From: Aporhodopirellula aestuarii
Lineage (GTDB): Bacteria; Planctomycetota; Planctomycetia; Pirellulales; Pirellulaceae
Direction of reading: 5' to 3'
DNA length: 64,000 nucleotides
Assembly: GCF_023701485.1 (NCBI RefSeq)
Contig: NZ_JAMQBK010000060.1
Coordinates: 62,001-126,000 of the forward strand
The translations under genes were made by a program, and so were the position numbers. Below, piece by piece: positions 38,856 through 57,101 of the stretch (position 1 is the stretch's first letter; each line of letters begins with the position of its first letter). Under the pieces are notes generated by a model. That model was not told the origin of the DNA, did no database searches, and worked only from the letters and a program-made list of their open reading frames with translations.

Positions 38856-41800
38856 TTACTCCGATAACAGCGGATCGAAGCTAACCTCGATTTGACGGAT
38901 TTCGCCCCGGCGGGCGAACAACGCGTCCGTCTCAGACGGCAACAAAACGAGGTCGTCGCGAATGATTGATTCATCTCCGACGCGGTGGACGACGACCTGC
39001 TGAAGCTTGTTACGGCGATAAACGATCGGAACCTGACACAGCGTAAACGCAAAACATCCCACCGGAATCGGTAATTGCTGCCGGTGGCCGTGTACGTCGA
39101 AATAATCGAGCACCGATTCGGATTTGAGAAACTCAGTCGCTTCAAAGAAAACGGGTTCAAACCGCAATTGCCCGCCATCGATTCGGATTCCGATTTCATC
39201 CCAACGCGAAAGGATGTCCTCCTTCACTTGGCCGGTCATCCCTGGTTGCTGAACACCTCCGCCTTCGGGGGTATGCGAATAAGGGTCCGACGGAAAAGCA
39301 CCGTAGTGCAGCGGCGTTTTGGTGAGTCCGATGCCGTCGCGAATTTCACGATAATGAGTGTGCAACCTACGAAGCATCGTCGAATCCCGATGCTCGGGGT
39401 CTTCGTGAACGTTGACACAGTGTTCCATGACCGCGAGAGCGAGTTTGGACACCATATGCCAATAGATCGATCCGAGCCCTTCGTATCCAAAGAACGTGCC
39501 CGAACGCCCGGTGAACTGATGATGCCCGAACGTCTTTTCGAACAGTTCATTCAACAGATCGCGTTCCAGACAAACCAATTCGTGATACTCGGCCCGAGAC
39601 TGTAGTCGGTCGAGCGACGAGTTCAGATCGGCGACGTTACGAAACTTCCCGTGAAAGTGAAAATCGCCGTGGACGTCCTGGCGCACGATCGAATTTTCGT
39701 TTTCGCTCGTCAACTTTTTCAACAACCGAGAACGCATCGCATCTTTCTGCGGCAACAAGTTCTTATTAAGGAAACGAGGCAACTGCCGATTCGGATACAA
39801 CATGTAACTCTGCTGATCCTCTCGGTAAATCTTGCTACGTCGCAATGCATCGAGCACATCGACTACTTCGGAACCAGACAGCAAACCGCTGCTGAGCACC
39901 GCGACCTGCCCCTCCAACATCTCATAGAGATGAGAGATCGGAGCGATCTGGGGCTCCAAATGCAACAAGTTATACGAGTGATACATGCCATCGTCGCGAC
40001 GATTGGCACGAATCGTATGGTCGATCATCCTCACCGCTCGCCCAAAAAGATCAACGAGCCAACTCAGCGAGACCTCCTGCGCATGATCGCCGATCCCGCG
40101 GTCATAGAGCCCCTCGCGATAATCCGAACCCGCCATCGCCAGTTCATCGAGAATCTGTCGTCGCCGCGAATCATTGATCGCACCGTCAAATGCGTCAGCG
40201 TGGTCGCCCAGAACTTGCTTAATGCGGTCAGCAAATTGATAAACGCTTTGAGAAATCAGTACCGACTCCGGAATGGAATCGCGTCCACTTGAGAACCAAT
40301 CAATCAAAAACGTCAGATAGCGTCGAAGGTGACACGCCGTTACGACGGACATACCGCGGCCGACGAGTGCATTGTTCGCATCATTCCATTCGGGACGCTG
40401 GGTATTGAGCCAGATACCGCCTTCGGGCACAAATCCGCTCAATTTGGCCAGTGCCGGAACGAGTAATTTTTCGACCAGGTTCACTCGCACCGTTTCGTCG
40501 TTCACACTCCACAGGAGCTTCCCGTCGCCACCGATTCGCTCCACACGTTGTGCGATTTCAGCCGCGCCGGCTGAATCAAAATCGATCGTATCCTGCGGAT
40601 CTCGGCAGATCGCCTCGTGGGATCGAATCCGGTAGGGAATGTTGGCGTAGGCGCAACGTTGACCGCTCAAACATTCATCCAGTCGATTTGGCGTCATCGC
40701 CTGGCCACGTTGCAACAGTCTCAACAGATAGACGATCTGGTGGTCACCCCAATAACCGATGTTCGCCCACGGATCATCCGGATCAGGAACTTCCCAATCA
40801 AAACCGTCTTTCGTTATCCGGTACGGGTTGTAACCGTCCGCCGTCGATGCGTTGACGAATCGGAGGATCATGTTGATGGTGAAGTAAGGATAGGCGACCG
40901 AGAGGGCTTCCCAGTTCTGGAAAATATCCCGCCAATTCCCTTGATAGCTCAAATTCTCGGTACCGTCCTCGGCACGCAAATCGATCGAAAACTTGTTCCA
41001 CGGACGCGTCGGATCACCATGTCGCCGGCTAAAACGTAACGGCAGATACTCCGACGTGATCCGGATCAGATCCGCATCCTCGGTTACCGCAACCTGTTGT
41101 TGCAGTTCATCCATTGTCAGGGTATCGGGCAAACACGAGAGGATATTTTCGCATCGCTGTGCGACACCGTGATTGGCCTTCCGCACATGCTCGCAAAAGT
41201 CTACGACGTTGATCCGATATCCATTCGCGGGAATCCCGCCACGCATCACGTTAAAGAGTACGTTGGATTGATGGCGCTGCGCTCGGAGTCGGTCGTCTCC
41301 AACTTGGCGTCCGTCTGACGCCGATACGATACGCAACAGGTTATCTTCCATGGCGGTGATGTCCTGTTCGATTTGGGAAGCGACGTTGTTTTGACCGACG
41401 ATGTTTTCGTGTAGTTCGATCACATCGCAATGGTCGTAGTTCACATCCGCAATGACCTTCCAACGCAGCGGCTCCAACGAAGGTAATTCCAACGTTTTCG
41501 ATATAAAATAGGCGCCTCGCTTCCCGCGAATATCGCTTTCGGCAGTGAGCCCGTTTCCCCGACGAACCTCCTCGACCTGAACGCTGCTGATCGCAACGGT
41601 CGGATCATCCAAACCGTGTTGCCACGCGACCGTGGCCAACAACCCTTCACTGGGTTCGGCACGGTCGGTCGGGATGGAGCTGAGATAGAAGATGCCCAGC
41701 GACGAATCGCTGAGCCGTTCGCTCTTCTTGTAGGCATCGGCCAAGTTGCTGTAGCGCAACTGGAAGTCTTTCCCAACACCGCTCGGTAGCAAGTTTTCTA

Positions 41801-42356
41801 AGCCATCGGTGAGTTCAACCTGCACCGGGCGATCGTCCAAATTCACCAGCTCACAACTGCGAATGAAGCCGAACTTCTCACCAAACGTCCAGGAATACCG
41901 GAACGCGAGTTTGAGTGAATGATTAATTTCCTCGAACAGAATGCGGCTGCCAAACCAATTCTTGTAAAGGTTCTGGGAACAATCGCTGGCAAGGGAATTG
42001 GCCGCAGAAAAGGGCTCCCAAAGCACGCTGGTTCCATCGTCCTGGAGAAGTCGCACGAATGTTTTGGGACCGGTGCACCCGGCCGTATCGACAATTTTGT
42101 CAGCCGAGTAATACGGAAACATCGCCGAATCGGGATTTTGTCTTCCCGCCGTCAACGCGCCACGGCTCGAAACGAACATCCAATGATCGCCCGAGCTGAT
42201 CGCGGTCAAAAAGAAACTCGACATACGATGACTGTTCACGATTTTGTACCAAATCGTGTTATCCATCGACACGTATTGCCCTGTCACAGCGTTCGTCGAA
42301 TCGGTTTTTTTGGAACTCGAAAGAACGGAATCAGATGGTGAATGCAGATTACTCAT
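38856..42356 (-). CDS. Very large glycosidase/phosphorylase-like protein
   Basis: 1166 residues with no signal peptide, so probably cytoplasmic. The N-terminal third is beta-rich, with YKIVNSHRMSSFFLTAISSGDHW and SSRGALTAGRQNPDSA. The middle is helical, as expected for an (alpha/alpha)6 barrel: ENLSYQGNWRDIFQNWEAL (about 470-490), YWGDHQIVYLLRLLQRG (about 538-555), QRPEWNDANNALVGRG (about 655-670). The EWND block recalls the acid-bearing DWND of GH94-type phosphorylases. The length fits the large beta-glucan phosphorylase types. I cannot fix the family. Its start is 34 bases after the transporter stop, so one operon takes up and breaks down a glycoside, probably under LacI control. Confidence 0.75.
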   Translation of the reverse strand: MSNLHSPSDSVLSSSKKTDSTNAVTGQYVSMDNTIWYKIVNSHRMSSFFLTAISSGDHWMFVSSRGALTAGRQNPDSAMFPYYSADKIVDTAGCTGPKTFVRLLQDDGTSVLWEPFSAANSLASDCSQNLYKNWFGSRILFEEINHSLKLAFRYSWTFGEKFGFIRSCELVNLDDRPVQVELTDGLENLLPSGVGKDFQLRYSNLADAYKKSERLSDSSLGIFYLSSIPTDRAEPSEGLLATVAWQHGLDDPTVAISSVQVEEVRRGNGLTAESDIRGKRGAYFISKTLELPSLEPLRWKVIADVNYDHCDVIELHENIVGQNNVASQIEQDITAMEDNLLRIVSASDGRQVGDDRLRAQRHQSNVLFNVMRGGIPANGYRINVVDFCEHVRKANHGVAQRCENILSCLPDTLTMDELQQQVAVTEDADLIRITSEYLPLRFSRRHGDPTRPWNKFSIDLRAEDGTENLSYQGNWRDIFQNWEALSVAYPYFTINMILRFVNASTADGYNPYRITKDGFDWEVPDPDDPWANIGYWGDHQIVYLLRLLQRGQAMTPNRLDECLSGQRCAYANIPYRIRSHEAICRDPQDTIDFDSAGAAEIAQRVERIGGDGKLLWSVNDETVRVNLVEKLLVPALAKLSGFVPEGGIWLNTQRPEWNDANNALVGRGMSVVTACHLRRYLTFLIDWFSSGRDSIPESVLISQSVYQFADRIKQVLGDHADAFDGAINDSRRRQILDELAMAGSDYREGLYDRGIGDHAQEVSLSWLVDLFGRAVRMIDHTIRANRRDDGMYHSYNLLHLEPQIAPISHLYEMLEGQVAVLSSGLLSGSEVVDVLDALRRSKIYREDQQSYMLYPNRQLPRFLNKNLLPQKDAMRSRLLKKLTSENENSIVRQDVHGDFHFHGKFRNVADLNSSLDRLQSRAEYHELVCLERDLLNELFEKTFGHHQFTGRSGTFFGYEGLGSIYWHMVSKLALAVMEHCVNVHEDPEHRDSTMLRRLHTHYREIRDGIGLTKTPLHYGAFPSDPYSHTPEGGGVQQPGMTGQVKEDILSRWDEIGIRIDGGQLRFEPVFFEATEFLKSESVLDYFDVHGHRQQLPIPVGCFAFTLCQVPIVYRRNKLQQVVVHRVGDESIIRDDLVLLPSETDALFARRGEIRQIEVSFDPLLSE

Positions 42357-42390: not shown

Positions 42391-44130
42391 TTAGCGAGTC
42401 GTTGATGATTCGATTGATTTTCGAGCCTGAAGTTCAAGCTCGATTTTCTCAGTGAGATGTTTGTCGATGCCGTAAAACATCAAACAGGCGGCGGACATAA
42501 AGAGAAACGCCGCAGGTATCAAACTCATCATCATTCGCAGCCCTTGCAGAGTGGTATCCGATTGAACTTGATCAACACCCTCGAGTGGTTGCGCGTACAA
42601 ATAGAAGTCGAGAGCGAAGCCGGTCATGGCCGCACCCACCGCACAACCCATCTTTTGTGAAAACGTTGCGGCTGCGAACACGAGTCCTGTTGCCCGACGT
42701 CCACTTCGCCACTCGGAATAGTCCGCGGTGTCGGCGTACATCGCCCACAGAAGCACTGGAACCGGTCCACCCACAAATGATGCCGCCACCTGCAAACCGA
42801 TCATCCAGTTGATCTGATCCGGCTCGAGGAAAATGAAAGCGGCGGTAAGAATCGCGACGCTAGCATTCATTCCGATCATCAGCACCTTCTTACCGAAGAT
42901 GCGTGTCAACGGTTTTGTCAACAACATGCCCGCAATTGCCGCAAAACTGCCCGAGACCCAAAACGTCGGTGCGATGCTCGCATCCCCGCAGTAGTACTTG
43001 AAGTAGTACAGAATCGCGCCACCGCGGATGAAAAGCCCTGACAGTTGCAACAACCCAAAAACGAACAGCACCATCCACGGACGGTTGGAGAGTAGGTCGT
43101 TGAAATCCAATTCGAAGGTGGATGTCTCTGTCGTTTCTGAATAGTGTTTCAACGCCAGGGCACGAATAATCAGCGAGACCACGCTCAAGACGACATACCC
43201 GATCACGATCGGAATTAATGTTTCGACCGCAAACGCAGTCGCCAAACACGCCAAGAGAGCGAGACCACCGAGCAATACCTGGTGCAGACGCAGACTGGTC
43301 AGGAGGAATTTCAAGTCTGCCCGGAAGGTAGAGGCTTCCTCGCTAATCGGTTGCACCCGTTCTCTGGTTGTCGCGAACGTGATGAAAAACAAAACCACCG
43401 AAGCAAGCGAAAAGACAACCATGGTTAAGAAGAAGCCACGCTGCTCGTTAAGAACAACGTCTTGGGCCACCCCATCGACAATCTTCGTCTCGGTACCACC
43501 GAAGAACGCAACAAGGTCGAGTGTGCAGTACTGAACGACGATGCCGCCGCAAAACGCTGCGATGAATCGGTACGTCGAAACACTCGTCCGCTCGATCGAA
43601 TCGGACGAAATCACCCCCATCAATGCGCCGTACGGAATGTTGATCGCGGTGTAAGCCATCATCACCAACGTGTAGGTGATGTACGCGTAGATCAGCTTCC
43701 CCGTCGGTCCAAGGTCAGGCGTGTAGAACGTCAACATCCCCGTGATCGCGAACGGAACCGACATCCAAATCAGATACGGGCGAAAACGTCCCCAAGTCGT
43801 GCGTGTGCGATCGGCGATGTAGCCGACTAACGGATCATTGATCGCATCCCAGATCCGCGTGACCAACATCAGCGTGCCGGCGGACTTGGCCGTCAGTCCG
43901 AAAACGTCGGTGTAGAAGTAGACGAGGAAGAATTCGAAGGTCTTCCAAAACAGATTGGAGGCGGTATCGCCCAACCCATATCCGACCTTTTCGGTAACTC
44001 CCAATTTTTGGCCCGCGACGGGACTCGGATCGGCGGTGGGCGGTGGCCCAGGTTCGATGGATGACACGAAAACCCCGTTTTCTGGTGAATCTATGGATTG
44101 AAAGGCGCCCAATGCTGCAAACAGTTTCAT
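42391..44130 (-). CDS. GPH-family sugar:cation symporter
   Basis: 579 residues from the ATG at 44130; upstream in-frame starts would lie inside the operator region. Ten to twelve hydrophobic helices are visible. Family blocks are KVGYGLGDTASNLFWKTF, RIWDAINDPLVGYIADRT and GRFRPYLIW near the N-terminus, typical of glycoside-pentoside-hexuronide symporters (MelB-like). It imports a disaccharide or glycoside into the cytoplasm using an ion gradient. A loop at about 230-245 and a larger insert in the middle make it longer than the usual 450-500. It is the first gene of the operon with the large glycosidase-like protein, divergent from the LacI gene. Confidence 0.93.
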   Translation of the reverse strand: MKLFAALGAFQSIDSPENGVFVSSIEPGPPPTADPSPVAGQKLGVTEKVGYGLGDTASNLFWKTFEFFLVYFYTDVFGLTAKSAGTLMLVTRIWDAINDPLVGYIADRTRTTWGRFRPYLIWMSVPFAITGMLTFYTPDLGPTGKLIYAYITYTLVMMAYTAINIPYGALMGVISSDSIERTSVSTYRFIAAFCGGIVVQYCTLDLVAFFGGTETKIVDGVAQDVVLNEQRGFFLTMVVFSLASVVLFFITFATTRERVQPISEEASTFRADLKFLLTSLRLHQVLLGGLALLACLATAFAVETLIPIVIGYVVLSVVSLIIRALALKHYSETTETSTFELDFNDLLSNRPWMVLFVFGLLQLSGLFIRGGAILYYFKYYCGDASIAPTFWVSGSFAAIAGMLLTKPLTRIFGKKVLMIGMNASVAILTAAFIFLEPDQINWMIGLQVAASFVGGPVPVLLWAMYADTADYSEWRSGRRATGLVFAAATFSQKMGCAVGAAMTGFALDFYLYAQPLEGVDQVQSDTTLQGLRMMMSLIPAAFLFMSAACLMFYGIDKHLTEKIELELQARKSIESSTTR

Positions 44131-44177: not shown

Positions 44178-44193
44178 TTGCAACCGGTTGCAA
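44178..44193. promoter_or_regulatory. LacI-type operator 1, perfect palindrome
   Basis: TTGCAACCGGTTGCAA is a perfect 16-bp palindrome with a central CG, typical of LacI-family sites. It lies 48 bases before the transporter start. Confidence 0.85.
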
Positions 44194-44258: not shown

Positions 44259-44284
44259 CAGGTGTCCAGATGGATACATTTAAG

Positions 44285-44300
44285 TGAAAGCGGTTGCAGA
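44285..44300. promoter_or_regulatory. LacI-type operator 3
   Basis: TGAAAGCGGTTGCAGA shares GCGGTTGC with the others and lies 26 bases before the LacI ATG, so autoregulation is likely. Its centre is 42 bp from site 2. Confidence 0.75.
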
Positions 44301-44326: not shown

Positions 44327-45337
44327 ATGAAACTCAACGACATCACCATCAAAGACATCGCCGAGCGAGCCAACGTTTCCAAGAGCACCGTTTCTCGAGT
44401 GCTCAATGACTTGGCAATCGTTAACCCCAAAACGCGACAAACGGTGCTCGAAGCTGTCGAGTCATTGGGATACCAAGCCAACGTGTTCGCCCGGGGACTC
44501 GCCAGCGGACGCTCGATGACGGTCGGCATCGTGACCCAAAAGATCGGCAGCCCCTTCTACGACATGATGATGCAGGGTGTGATCCAAGGCTTCACCGGAA
44601 CCGGTTACTCGCCGATCTTCGTTGATGGCCAGTGGGAACAAAGCACCGAACTCGACGTCATCCGCACCCTGCTGGGTCGCAAAGTCGATGGGCTGATCCT
44701 CCTCGGAGGCGACATTTCACAGAAAGACCTCGACACCCTGCGAGATCGATTACCAACGATCGTCGTCGGTCGAGACGTTCCCGGTTGGGAAAATCAATGT
44801 GTCTACGTCGATAATTTTTCTGGTGCGTATGACGCGACCCGACACCTGATCGAATTCGGACACCGCAACATCGCCATCATTCGCGGAATCACACACCACC
44901 AAGATGCGATCCGTCGTTTCCAGGGATACGCCCAAGCCTTGTCCGACGCATCCATCGAACTCGATCCGGACCTGGTTCTCGACGGCAATTTTTCTGCCCA
45001 GTCAGGAATATTGGCGATCAACTCACTGCTCATGCGTGGCAAATCATTCTCGGCCGTGTTCTGTGCCAATGACATGGTGGCCTATGGCGCCCGGTTGGCA
45101 TTGCAGCGGAAAGGCATCCGCGTCCCCGAAGATGTCTCGATCGTCGGCTTCGATGATCAAGCGGAATCCTCTTACGTTTCCCCACCTCTGACCACCGTCC
45201 GGCAACCCGGTGTCGAAATGGGTGGCGTGGCGGCAAAAGGTTTAGTGAAGCTTATGCAAGGCGAGACCTGCGAATTGCCTGTCATGAAAGCCGAACTGCA
45301 GCGAAGAGAATCGGTTTCGCGGATCACCACCCCCTAA
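44327..45337 (+). CDS. LacI-family transcriptional regulator of the sugar operon
   Basis: 336 residues from the ATG at 44327; an upstream TTG frame runs into operator 3. The N-terminal helix-turn-helix TIKDIAERANVSKSTVSRVL (about 6-25) and hinge helix LASGRS are typical. The ligand-binding domain has the type 1 periplasmic-binding fold (VGIVTQKIGSPFYDMMMQG, VDGLILLGG, VFCANDMVAYGARLAL, SIVGFDD). Three operator-like palindromes in the divergent region fit direct control of the transporter-glycosidase operon and itself. The inducer is probably the transported sugar or its product. Confidence 0.94.
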   Translation: MKLNDITIKDIAERANVSKSTVSRVLNDLAIVNPKTRQTVLEAVESLGYQANVFARGLASGRSMTVGIVTQKIGSPFYDMMMQGVIQGFTGTGYSPIFVDGQWEQSTELDVIRTLLGRKVDGLILLGGDISQKDLDTLRDRLPTIVVGRDVPGWENQCVYVDNFSGAYDATRHLIEFGHRNIAIIRGITHHQDAIRRFQGYAQALSDASIELDPDLVLDGNFSAQSGILAINSLLMRGKSFSAVFCANDMVAYGARLALQRKGIRVPEDVSIVGFDDQAESSYVSPPLTTVRQPGVEMGGVAAKGLVKLMQGETCELPVMKAELQRRESVSRITTP

Positions 45338-52120: not shown

Positions 52121-52146
52121 TGATACAATGCAATTTTATGCACACA
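52121..52146 (+). promoter_or_regulatory. Candidate -10 box overlapped by 20-bp operator-like element, copy 2
   Basis: TGATACAAT (52121-52129) looks like an extended -10 box. The 20-bp element AATGCAATTTTATGCACACA begins inside it at 52127 and covers the likely start of transcription, the expected position for repression of the glycosidase gene. The outer TGCA parts are symmetric, the middle is not. No good -35 box is seen. Confidence 0.65.
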
Positions 52147-52170
52147 GTAGTCTCAGGAGAACAACACACA

Positions 52171-53478
52171 ATGAATACCGCTAGACGATTGACAATTTTT
52201 CTTGCCGGCTTGTTGTCGGTAGCCCTCTCAGTACCTGGGGCGACCTTCGCGTCGGAAGTAACCGTCGAAAAAGATGACCAAGGGCACTTTTTCCTCAAAC
52301 GGGAAGGAAAACCCTATTTCATTTATGGGGCAGGTGGAACGGATCATCTGAAAACGCTGGTCGAATGTGGCGGCAACTCCATTCGCACCTGGGGAATCGA
52401 ATCACTTGAAAAGCAGATCGACGGCAAACCGTTGCTTGACTATTGCCACGAGCTAGGAATCACCGTCACCGTGGGGTTGTGGCTTGAGCATGAACGGCAC
52501 GGGTTTGATTATTCCGATCCTCAACAAATTGCCAAACAACGCGACGCGGTCCGCCAAGCCGTACGTCAGTACAAGGACCATCCGGCGATTCTGATGTGGG
52601 GGCTTGGCAATGAAATGGAAGGCCCCGAATCCGACAGCGGTGCGGTCCGGATTTGGAAGGAACTCAACACTCTGGCCAAGATCGTGAAATCAGAGGATCC
52701 GAATCACCCGGTCATGACGGTAATTGCGGGGGCTTCGGCGGCAAAAATCAAAGGCATTATGGAGCACTATCCCAACATCGATGTTCTTGGGGTGAATTCG
52801 TACGGGGCCGCCTCTTCGGTCGCCAGCGACGTGAAAGCGGCGGGTTGGAACAAACCATTTGCTTTGACCGAATTTGGCCCTTCGGGACACTGGGAAGTCC
52901 CCCAAACATCCTGGGGCGCCGCGATCGAACCGAGCAGCCGAACGAAAGCGGCCAGTTATTACGTCACGCAATCGATGTTGGCCGATGACGCGGGCGACAT
53001 CTGCGTCGGTAGCTACTGCTTTCTTTGGGGCCAAAAACAGGAAAAAACATCGACCTGGTATGGGATGTTTTTGCCCTCAGGCGAAAAGCTGCCGCAGGTG
53101 GACGCAATGTGTCGAGCCTGGACCGGGAAATGGCCCGCCAACCGTTGCCCAAAAGTCACGAGTCTTGAAACGGAACTTAACGAGGCCAAGGTTGCCCCGG
53201 GTGCACTCGTCAAGGCCCGCGTGAATGCAACAGATCCGGAGCAGGATCCCCTACAGTGGACTTGGTTTGTGCAAGCCGAAACGACTGAGATCAGTGTCGG
53301 TGGCGATCGCGAATCGGTTCCTCCGGTTTTTCCGGAATGCATCGTGGAGGCCAAAGACGGCGAAGCTGTCATTCGAACACCCACCAAACCCGGCAATTAT
53401 CGATTATTCATCATCGTGCGGGACGGCCAGGGTAACGCGAGTGCCGACAATGTTTGCTTCCAGGTGACTGCAAGCTAA
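52171..53478 (+). CDS. Secreted glycoside hydrolase (GH2/GH5-like TIM barrel)
   Basis: 435 residues from the ATG at 52171 with AGGAG upstream; an upstream ATG at 52138 lies within the operator. Signal peptide 1-27. A TIM barrel covers about 28-320 with IRTWGIESLEKQ, MWGLGNEME (acid/base Glu148) and ALTEFGPSG (nucleophile Glu234), the arrangement of retaining clan GH-A enzymes. The C-terminal 110 residues form an Ig-like beta domain with VNATDPEQDPLQW. It probably cuts a beta-linked glycan outside the cell or in the periplasm. It is controlled by the divergent LacI protein, judging from the operator over its promoter. Confidence 0.85.
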   Translation: MNTARRLTIFLAGLLSVALSVPGATFASEVTVEKDDQGHFFLKREGKPYFIYGAGGTDHLKTLVECGGNSIRTWGIESLEKQIDGKPLLDYCHELGITVTVGLWLEHERHGFDYSDPQQIAKQRDAVRQAVRQYKDHPAILMWGLGNEMEGPESDSGAVRIWKELNTLAKIVKSEDPNHPVMTVIAGASAAKIKGIMEHYPNIDVLGVNSYGAASSVASDVKAAGWNKPFALTEFGPSGHWEVPQTSWGAAIEPSSRTKAASYYVTQSMLADDAGDICVGSYCFLWGQKQEKTSTWYGMFLPSGEKLPQVDAMCRAWTGKWPANRCPKVTSLETELNEAKVAPGALVKARVNATDPEQDPLQWTWFVQAETTEISVGGDRESVPPVFPECIVEAKDGEAVIRTPTKPGNYRLFIIVRDGQGNASADNVCFQVTAS

Positions 53479-53579
53479 CTCCGAAAAACCGATTTCTGAA
53501 TAGGTTTATCGCATTCCTGCTATAACTAAACGCAGCTTGCGCCACTGAAATCAGTTGTCACCGTTAATTTTTATAGCAT

Positions 53580-53596
53580 CCGGGGGGTTCCCCCGG
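53580..53596 (+). other. GC-rich hairpin upstream of the sugar-binding protein gene
   Basis: CCGGGGG and CCCCCGG pair perfectly around a 3-base loop. No T-run follows. It lies in the 159-base gap between the glycosidase gene and the next gene and may be a mild terminator or leader structure. Confidence 0.45.
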
Positions 53597-53637
53597 TGGT
53601 CTCTGATGGTTCGGGCTGTGAGAGAATGGCTTGAGGA

Positions 53638-54882
53638 ATGAACGTCGTGTGTGCAAATTCGGTTGAGTCGTATAAATGGTCAATCCATTTGCGTTGGATC
53701 TTTGCCTTCGTCTTTTTCGCGATCCTATTCACATTCGCCGGCCATCGAACATGGGGTGGTGATGCCGTCGAAAAGGATCGAAAACCTCGTGTTTTATTAT
53801 TCAGCGGGAGTGATAAGGACGACCCGTTTTGGATTCTGTTTACTGATTTCATGAGCGTCGCAGCCGATCAACTCGGCTTCGAACTGAAGGTCCATTTCGC
53901 TGACGGCAGTCTCAACGCGATGGCGAGTTTGATGCGCGTGGAGTGTGAAAGAAAGGTGAAGCCAGCCGGGATCGTGATCCAAAGTTTCAAACGTGGAGGC
54001 CCGAGATTTTTAAGGATCGCAAATTCTTATCGCATTCCGGTCTTCCTTGTTAACTCGGGGCTCACCGCCGAGCAGTCCGCCATCACCGGTGAACCGAGAA
54101 CCCATCTAGAACATTGGATCGCGGAAATGCTGCCGGACGACTACGGCGCAGGCTTTCAACTGGCCAACGCGCTGATCGATGAAGCCCGCAAAGATCCGGC
54201 TAAAATATCCGCCGACGGACGCGTTCACATCATCGGGCTGAGTGGAACCGTCTCTCACGGTGCCTCGGTTCAGCGAGCAGCAGGGTTGATGGACGCGATC
54301 GCTGCGCGTGAGGACGAGGCAATATTGGATCAAATGGTTTCCGCTGATTGGAAGCGAGGTTACGCAAAGAATCGTTGCCGGATCTTGCACCGGCGGTATC
54401 CGGAAGCGTCGATTGTTTGGGCGGCGAGCGATCAAATGGCGCTGGGTGCCGCGCAAGCGATCCGTGATCGCGGCTTCGTTCCGGGAAAGGATGTGGTGAT
54501 CGGAGGCGTTGATGCCACCCGCGAAGGTCTCAAGGCGATCGAAAAGGGCACTCTCGCGGCCACCGTGGGTGGCCACTTTCAGGAGGGCGGATGGGTCGCC
54601 GTGATCCTTCATGATCTGGTTCACGGATTGGATTTGGAGAAGATTCCGACGCACTTTGTATCTCCCATGACGCTCGTCACGGCGGAAAACATGGCCACCT
54701 ATCGCGCCGGATTACGAGCCAAGCAATGGAAACAGATTGATTTCTTACAGTTCTCCCGTTTGCACCAACCCGAATCAGACAACTATCGTTTTCGTTTTGA
54801 CTTAGGGGAAAATTCAGCGGAGACCTCGATGCCGTCCATCAAGGAGTCGCCCCCCGTTGAAAAACCCGCGCGAAACGAATGA
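53638..54882 (+). CDS. LuxP-like periplasmic sugar-binding protein
   Basis: 414 residues with a signal-anchor at about 17-36. The type 1 periplasmic-binding fold is clear: [19 protein letters not shown] at the first strand, [42 protein letters not shown] and [12 protein letters not shown]. It likely binds a sugar-type ligand. The stop overlaps the following kinase start by ATGA and no ABC permease or ATPase is nearby, so it probably feeds the sensor rather than a transporter. The start codon is chosen as the first ATG; its Shine-Dalgarno sequence is poor. Confidence 0.88.
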
Positions 54883-57101
54883 CCCCGCTACCACCACGTG
54901 TATCCCAATCGAGCAACGACACCGATGAGCGTCAAATCGCGCTTCGCTATATCATCGCGCTCGTCACCACGGTTCTGGTCACGCTCGCGATCTTCGGCGG
55001 TGTTGCGGCCTTAGTCACGCTGCGACAACTCGACGATCGGATCCGAGAAGAGGCTGAACGAAGTGCCGCTGCCATTGCAACAAGTACCGCAACGCCTTTG
55101 TGGAACGTCGACGAACAGACCATTGGTGATTTGCTCGGGGCAATGCTCACCAATCAAGAAATCGTCTATTTGGAAGTCAACGATGGAACCGAGATATTGG
55201 CTTCTCGTCGGCAAGCAAACACACCACAACTCAATCTGAAGGGATATACGCGGACACCACAATATGCCGTCGCCAGCAGTCCCGTCACCTACAACGCTCA
55301 AGTGATCGGCGAAGTGAATTTGGTCATGTCACGTCTGGCGATCATTGATCAAGTTCGCCGCAATGTATGGTCCGCAGTCGCGCTCGCAATGGTCCTGAGC
55401 CTCGCCGTATCGATCACCTCCGTCATCATTACTCGCCAGTTCGTTTATCGGCCGCTCAAACAGCTCAAAAACGAAGCGATGCGTGCGGAAGAAAAGGCCG
55501 AAGCGGCTAATCACGCCAAGAGTGAATTTCTTGCTTCGATGAGCCACGAGATTCGAACCCCCATGAACGGAATCATCGGCATGACCGATTTGTTGCTGGG
55601 TACCGAACTATCACACGATCAGCGAGATTATCAACTGATTGTGAAGCAATCCGCCGAATCATTGATGCAATTGCTCAATGACATCCTTGATTTTTCTAAG
55701 ATCGAGGCCGGCAAACTGGAACTCGAGTCGATTCGCTTCAGTCTTCGCGAAACACTCGGTGATACCTTATTAACACTCGCCAATCGTGCAGCCGATAAAC
55801 GCATCGAACTGGCATTGCAGATCCCCACATCCGTCCCGGATTTTGTCGTCGGCGACCCTATGCGTCTGCGACAGATCGTGATGAACCTAGCCAGCAATGC
55901 GATTAAGTTTACCGATGTCGGTGAGATCGTTGTGGAAGTCCACGTTCGTTCACGCACCAATGAGAGCGTTGTTTTGGACTTCGCGGTGCGTGACACCGGA
56001 ATCGGAATCCATGCCGAAAAACAAGCGGAAATATTCAACATGTTCAGTCAAGCGGATATCGCGACCGCTCGACAATTCGGCGGAACTGGACTGGGATTAA
56101 CCATTTCGCGACGACTCACGGAGTTAATGAATGGAGAAATATCGGTTGAAAGCGAGGAGGGCAAAGGAAGCAAATTTCGGTTCAACATCAAACTAACACT
56201 CGCTGAAAATCAAACATCACTCATACTCCCAGAATCCATCAGGGGGCGTTCGGTATTGATCGTTGATGACAACGATACCAATCGACATATACTCAAAGAA
56301 TTACTCGGCGAGTGGGGACTTAACGTGACCACCGCTGGTAACGCGACACAGGGAATCGCGGCAATGGAAAGTGCCGCAACATCCAGCATCCCATTCCAGC
56401 TGTTGCTGGTCGATGAAGTGATGCCTGATATCGATGGGTGGGCATTCTCAGAACGGGTTCGCAATCATCCCGACGCTCGCATCGCTAAGACGCCAATGGT
56501 GGTCATGACTTCCGCGACCGATGGTCGCAGCGGTTCGGAGGTGCGAAAATGGAACATTGCTCGCTGTCTTCCCAAACCGCTGAAACAGTCCGTGCTGCGT
56601 GAAGCGATTATCATGACGTTGGCCCCGGTGGGTTCACCGCAACACCAAGACGCAGTCTTGACGTCCGCCAGTCGTACCGCTTCACCGTTGAACGTGCTGC
56701 TCGTCGAAGACGGGCTGGTGAACCAAAAGGTCGCCAGCACGATGCTGCGACGACGCGGACACTCCGTACAAATCGCGTGCAATGGCCAGGAAGCAATCGA
56801 TGTCCTGTTCTCAGACGAAGCCCCTCAATTTGATCTCGTGCTGATGGACGTGCAGATGCCAGTGATGGACGGATTAGAGGCGGCGCGAGAGATCCGACAA
56901 CGAGAAAAATCTCTAGGCAGTCATATCCGAATCCTAGCGATGACAGCCAACGCGATGAAAGGTGATCGCGAACGCTGCCTCGACGCCGGCATGGACGGAT
57001 ATCTATCGAAGCCGATTCGGTCGCATGAGTTTTTCCTCAAAATTGAACCGGAAAACCCTCCTCAATCCGCCCTCAATCACGCTGACAGTCCAGCGAATTG
57101 A
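54879..57101 (+). CDS. Hybrid histidine kinase with two receiver domains
   Basis: 740 residues. Two transmembrane helices (about 25-47 and 164-186) enclose a periplasmic sensor of about 115 residues. A short linker leads to HisKA with His223 in [12 protein letters not shown] and a HATPase with [17 protein letters not shown] and [12 protein letters not shown]1 (about 445-560) has LIVDDND and Asp512 in [12 protein letters not shown]2 (about 605-725) has [13 protein letters not shown] and Asp657 in [11 protein letters not shown]. It has no Hpt domain, so a separate phosphotransfer protein is needed. Overlap with the binding-protein gene suggests direct partnership, as in LuxP/LuxQ. Confidence 0.95.

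Follow-up and report, generated by a model that had tools for sequence, protein, structure and literature searches.

A predicted GH149 β-1,3-glucan phosphorylase beside a GPH-type symporter and a LacI-type regulator in Aporhodopirellula aestuarii

The window analysed here is a stretch of 64,000 nucleotides from the planctomycete Aporhodopirellula aestuarii (contig NZ_JAMQBK010000060.1, positions 62,001 to 126,000), and the gene under study occupies its positions 38856-42356. The encoded protein of 1166 amino acids (aa) is almost certainly a GH149 β-1,3-glucan phosphorylase, and is as such an ordinary further member of a known family rather than new biochemistry. What this analysis demonstrates is the family and fold of the protein, its active-site residues, the order of the genes and the conservation of the operators.

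38856..42356, minus strand: GH149 β-1,3-glucan phosphorylase (almost certain), 1166 aa; profile, structure and residue matches; D659, R476-D477, E959, H967

Family, fold and active site

The open reading frame lies on the minus strand, where it runs from an ATG through 1166 codons to a stop; the opposite strand carries stops in the same register. An earlier sequence-only reading gave coordinates and length correctly and left the strand unstated. The two motifs on which it drew, EWNDANN and WGDHQ, are present at residues 656-662 and 536-540, respectively. The N-terminus is free of any strongly hydrophobic segment, in agreement with the proposed absence of a signal peptide and consistent with a cytoplasmic location. 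The gene is single-copy in the 9.07-Mb genome.

The family assignment is readily apparent from profile comparison. The NCBIfam equivalog NF058639 ("1,3-beta-D-glucan phosphorylase, GH149") matches residues 21-1160 over model positions 2-1133/1134 with 1603 bits, about 450 bits above its curated cut-off of 1150 bits. The nearest solved structure by sequence is the GH149 enzyme Pro_7066 (6HQ6/6HQ8), aligned over residues 6-1160 with 1145 bits. Pfam-A, Glyco_hydro_94 included, gives no match at E values up to 1, and the protein therefore seems to lack a family in a Pfam-only view. The sequence-only reading had found no characterised family for this protein and had ranked it as the best candidate in the window for new biochemistry. 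The first statement falls because of the full-length, strong match to GH149, a family with known activity, and the second is left unsupported by the same result. GH149 was itself among the families for which that reading had proposed a profile comparison. The family assignment is thus settled, and the false lead of an enzyme of unclear family is removed.

The predicted structure points to the same family. The AlphaFold2 model, built on an alignment of 26 proteins, has a mean predicted local distance difference test score (pLDDT) of 84 and a predicted template-modelling score of 0.86. Its top structural matches are 6HQ8 and 6HQ6, with template-modelling scores (TM) of 0.94 (query) and 0.96 (target) at about 45% identity; superposition on 6HQ8 gives a Z of about 49.8-49.9 and a root-mean-square deviation of 2.1 over about 1130 residues. 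The (α/α)6 barrel expected from the motifs is thereby borne out. The domain order of Pro_7066 is matched end to end, from the β-sandwich and helical linker through the barrel with its two inserted domains to the C-terminal jelly roll.

In the Pro_7066 structure 6HQ6, the active site consists of W651-N652-D653, with D653 as the predicted catalytic residue, together with R470-D471, E951 and H959 (PMC6771811). The aligned equivalents here are W657-N658-D659, R476-D477, E959 and H967. All seven residues are invariant across 85 sequences from Planctomycetota, Bacteroidota and other phyla, including D659, the catalytic acid anticipated at the EWND position. The GH149 signature is consequently complete: a WND loop with the catalytic Asp, an RD motif, a donor-site Glu and a phosphate-site His.

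Alternative families and substrates

Two related phosphorylase families were considered and rejected. An identity with GH94 is opposed by the missing Glyco_hydro_94 match and by a structural Z of 28.5 for GH94 laminaribiose phosphorylase. A GH161 β-1,3-glucan phosphorylase, which would require chains of at least three glucoses, shares clan GH-Q with GH149, and the GH161 structures 9qqk and 9h8v do show a weak sequence similarity (E about 1e-12). This similarity amounts to 49 bits vs 1145 for GH149, and the structural match reaches a Z of 36.5 at 18% identity vs 49.9 at 44%. As a family assignment GH161 is refuted by the NF058639 match, and the probability left to it is practically negligible.

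A more specific question is whether the planctomycete branch has kept the GH149 fold and shifted its substrate, toward another β-linked gluco-oligosaccharide or another chain length. The 13 planctomycete GH149 sequences, that of the window among them, group together with full support in a quick, midpoint-rooted tree; they are about 45-47% identical to the Bacteroidota members and have their own transporter type and regulator. Furthermore, the surface site that binds laminarihexaose in Pro_7066 is largely lost here: Y841 is replaced by Q849, Y993 by R1003, E990 by T1000 and R1062 by Glu, with E838 and E994 retained. Poor conservation of this site has already been reported for bacterial GH149s less similar to Pro_7066 (PMC6771811), so its loss falls within normal variation and does not affect GH149 membership. 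Each active-site residue tested is invariant, and the equivalog cut-off is surpassed by the wide margin given above. A shifted substrate for the present enzyme is therefore considered very improbable. A chain-length or linkage preference new to the family in the branch as a whole, which is marked by its dedicated LacI/GPH module and by the absence of the Pro_7066 surface site, is given a slightly better chance, and is still unlikely.

Several observations weigh against an unreserved assignment of β-1,3-glucan phosphorylase activity. The catalytic loop (residues 654-663) has a pLDDT below 50 in the AlphaFold2 model. In the literature examined, GH149 activity data come from two enzymes, EgP1 and Pro_7066; these are 45% identical and already unlike in chain-length preference, so this preference is not transferable to the 1166-aa protein. 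Finally, the six GH16 domains encoded in the genome, which as a possible source of oligosaccharides speak for the assignment, are putative laminarinases at most; they and a single GH3 all lie away from the GH149 gene, which has no laminarinase beside it.

Neighbouring genes and operators

The symporter and LacI-type regulator named by the sequence-only reading as gene context are confirmed. The symporter gene lies upstream of the GH149 gene on the same strand with a gap of 34 bases, and the regulator gene is divergent from it. The intergenic region between these two genes contains three predicted LacI-type operators.

42391..44130, minus strand: glycoside-pentoside-hexuronide (GPH) cation symporter; TIGR00792 above cut-off; start moved from TTG 44196 to ATG 44130 (probable)
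44178..44193: predicted LacI-type operator 1, perfect palindrome TTGCAACCGGTTGCAA
44242..44257: predicted LacI-type operator 2, CTGAAACCGGTTGCAA, 64 bp from operator 1
44284..44299: predicted LacI-type operator 3, GTGAAAGCGGTTGCAG, 42 bp from operator 2
44327..45337, plus strand: divergent LacI-family repressor; start moved from TTG 44294 to ATG 44327 (probable)

Operator 1 abuts the mechanically listed TTG start of the symporter, inside that frame, and operator 3 overlaps the listed TTG of the regulator. On these grounds, the true starts are probably ATG 44130 and ATG 44327. A loose operator consensus finds exactly these three sites in the plus-strand text of the window vs 0.32 expected from shuffles, a comparison biased toward them since the consensus was drawn up after they had been seen. 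Similar sites occur beside the regulator in three relatives (three in L002, three in L003, two in L008), where one operator spacing is 64, 65 and 68 bp, respectively, vs 64 bp here. Repression may plausibly involve DNA looping. The genome-wide operator search for a wider regulon returned 6 matches per strand, as did its backwards control, and is uninformative beyond the intergenic region. A scan for sigma-70 promoters gave sites no more numerous than in shuffles.

The LacI / GPH symporter / GH149 module recurs in other Pirellulaceae. Among the Planctomycetota relatives whose contig extends far enough for comparison, L002 (Rhodopirellula maiorica), L004 and L007 have clear copies of both symporter and regulator by the GH149 gene, and L003, L008 and L010 have the regulator at 52-60% identity together with a symporter copy that is distant or not recognisable. 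GH149 itself is patchily distributed: among the genomes sampled, with the source genome counted each time, 7 of 60 at family level and 7 of 199 at phylum level gave matches, some of them weak or fragmentary.

Two relatives deserve separate mention. One genome carries, on a single contig, a GH149 gene split into two frames with internal stops (L087 and L089), as a result of either gene decay or faulty assembly. On L043, a contig assigned to Bdellovibrio by binning, the GH149 sequence forms a tight pair with one from Flavobacterium in the tree, which probably reflects mis-binning or a recent transfer. Elsewhere in the window, positions 52138-57101 encode a protein with a weak GH2-type TIM-barrel match and, after it, a periplasmic sugar-binding protein and a hybrid histidine kinase that has receiver domains; together these look like a sugar-sensing signalling set.

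Proposed function and comparison with known systems

The activity, linkage, in vivo direction, transported sugar and inducer proposed for this system are drawn from the characterised family members and the gene context. From gene order alone, the symporter is predicted to carry β-1,3-gluco-oligosaccharides, and would import such laminarin fragments into the cytoplasm. There, the GH149 enzyme would act as an inverting phosphorylase, using inorganic phosphate to release α-glucose 1-phosphate at the non-reducing end and leaving the chain one glucose shorter. D659 would act as the catalytic acid, with R476, D477 and E959 holding the donor glucose and H967 at the phosphate site. Control of both symporter and phosphorylase would fall to the divergent LacI-type repressor, acting via the three operators. 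The earlier proposal of a cytoplasmic phosphorylase acting on an imported oligosaccharide is thus supported by the GH149 profile and the Pro_7066 match.

The GH16 and GH3 domains encoded elsewhere could have a role in supplying or finishing the β-1,3-gluco-oligosaccharides. A GH17 search of the genome gave no match, but its control was equally silent, so that absence is not established. A weak GH94-like match (E 3.6e-4) is present elsewhere in the genome, under the cut-off.

These results place a planctomycete GH149, together with a transporter and a LacI-type regulator of its own, in the Pirellulaceae, which are not among the carriers named in the founding GH149 paper (PMC5827456); no paper was found by a literature search combining laminarin, Rhodopirellula and phosphorylase. 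This suggests that Pirellulaceae take up β-1,3-gluco-oligosaccharides and spare ATP by phosphorolysis.

The closest known systems are the founders of GH149, EgP1 from Euglena gracilis and Pro_7066, both assayed as β-1,3-glucan phosphorylases (PMC5827456). Pro_7066, at 45% identity, matches the 1166-aa protein from end to end, in the order of its domains, in fold (TM 0.94) and in every published active-site residue. The likeness to EgP1 is indirect, through membership of NF058639 and its kinship with Pro_7066. GH161 (9gy9, 9qqk) and GH94 laminaribiose phosphorylase (6ggy, 6gh3) share the clan GH-Q fold and the WND catalytic motif, at a sequence and structural similarity far lower than that of GH149. 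The Bacteroidota laminarin utilisation loci with GH149 (PMC5827456; PMC10877868) likewise have a phosphorylase gene adjoining a sugar transporter. In contrast to these loci, the system described here is pared down to a LacI-type regulator, a GPH symporter and GH149, with no GH16, GH17 or GH30 genes adjoining.
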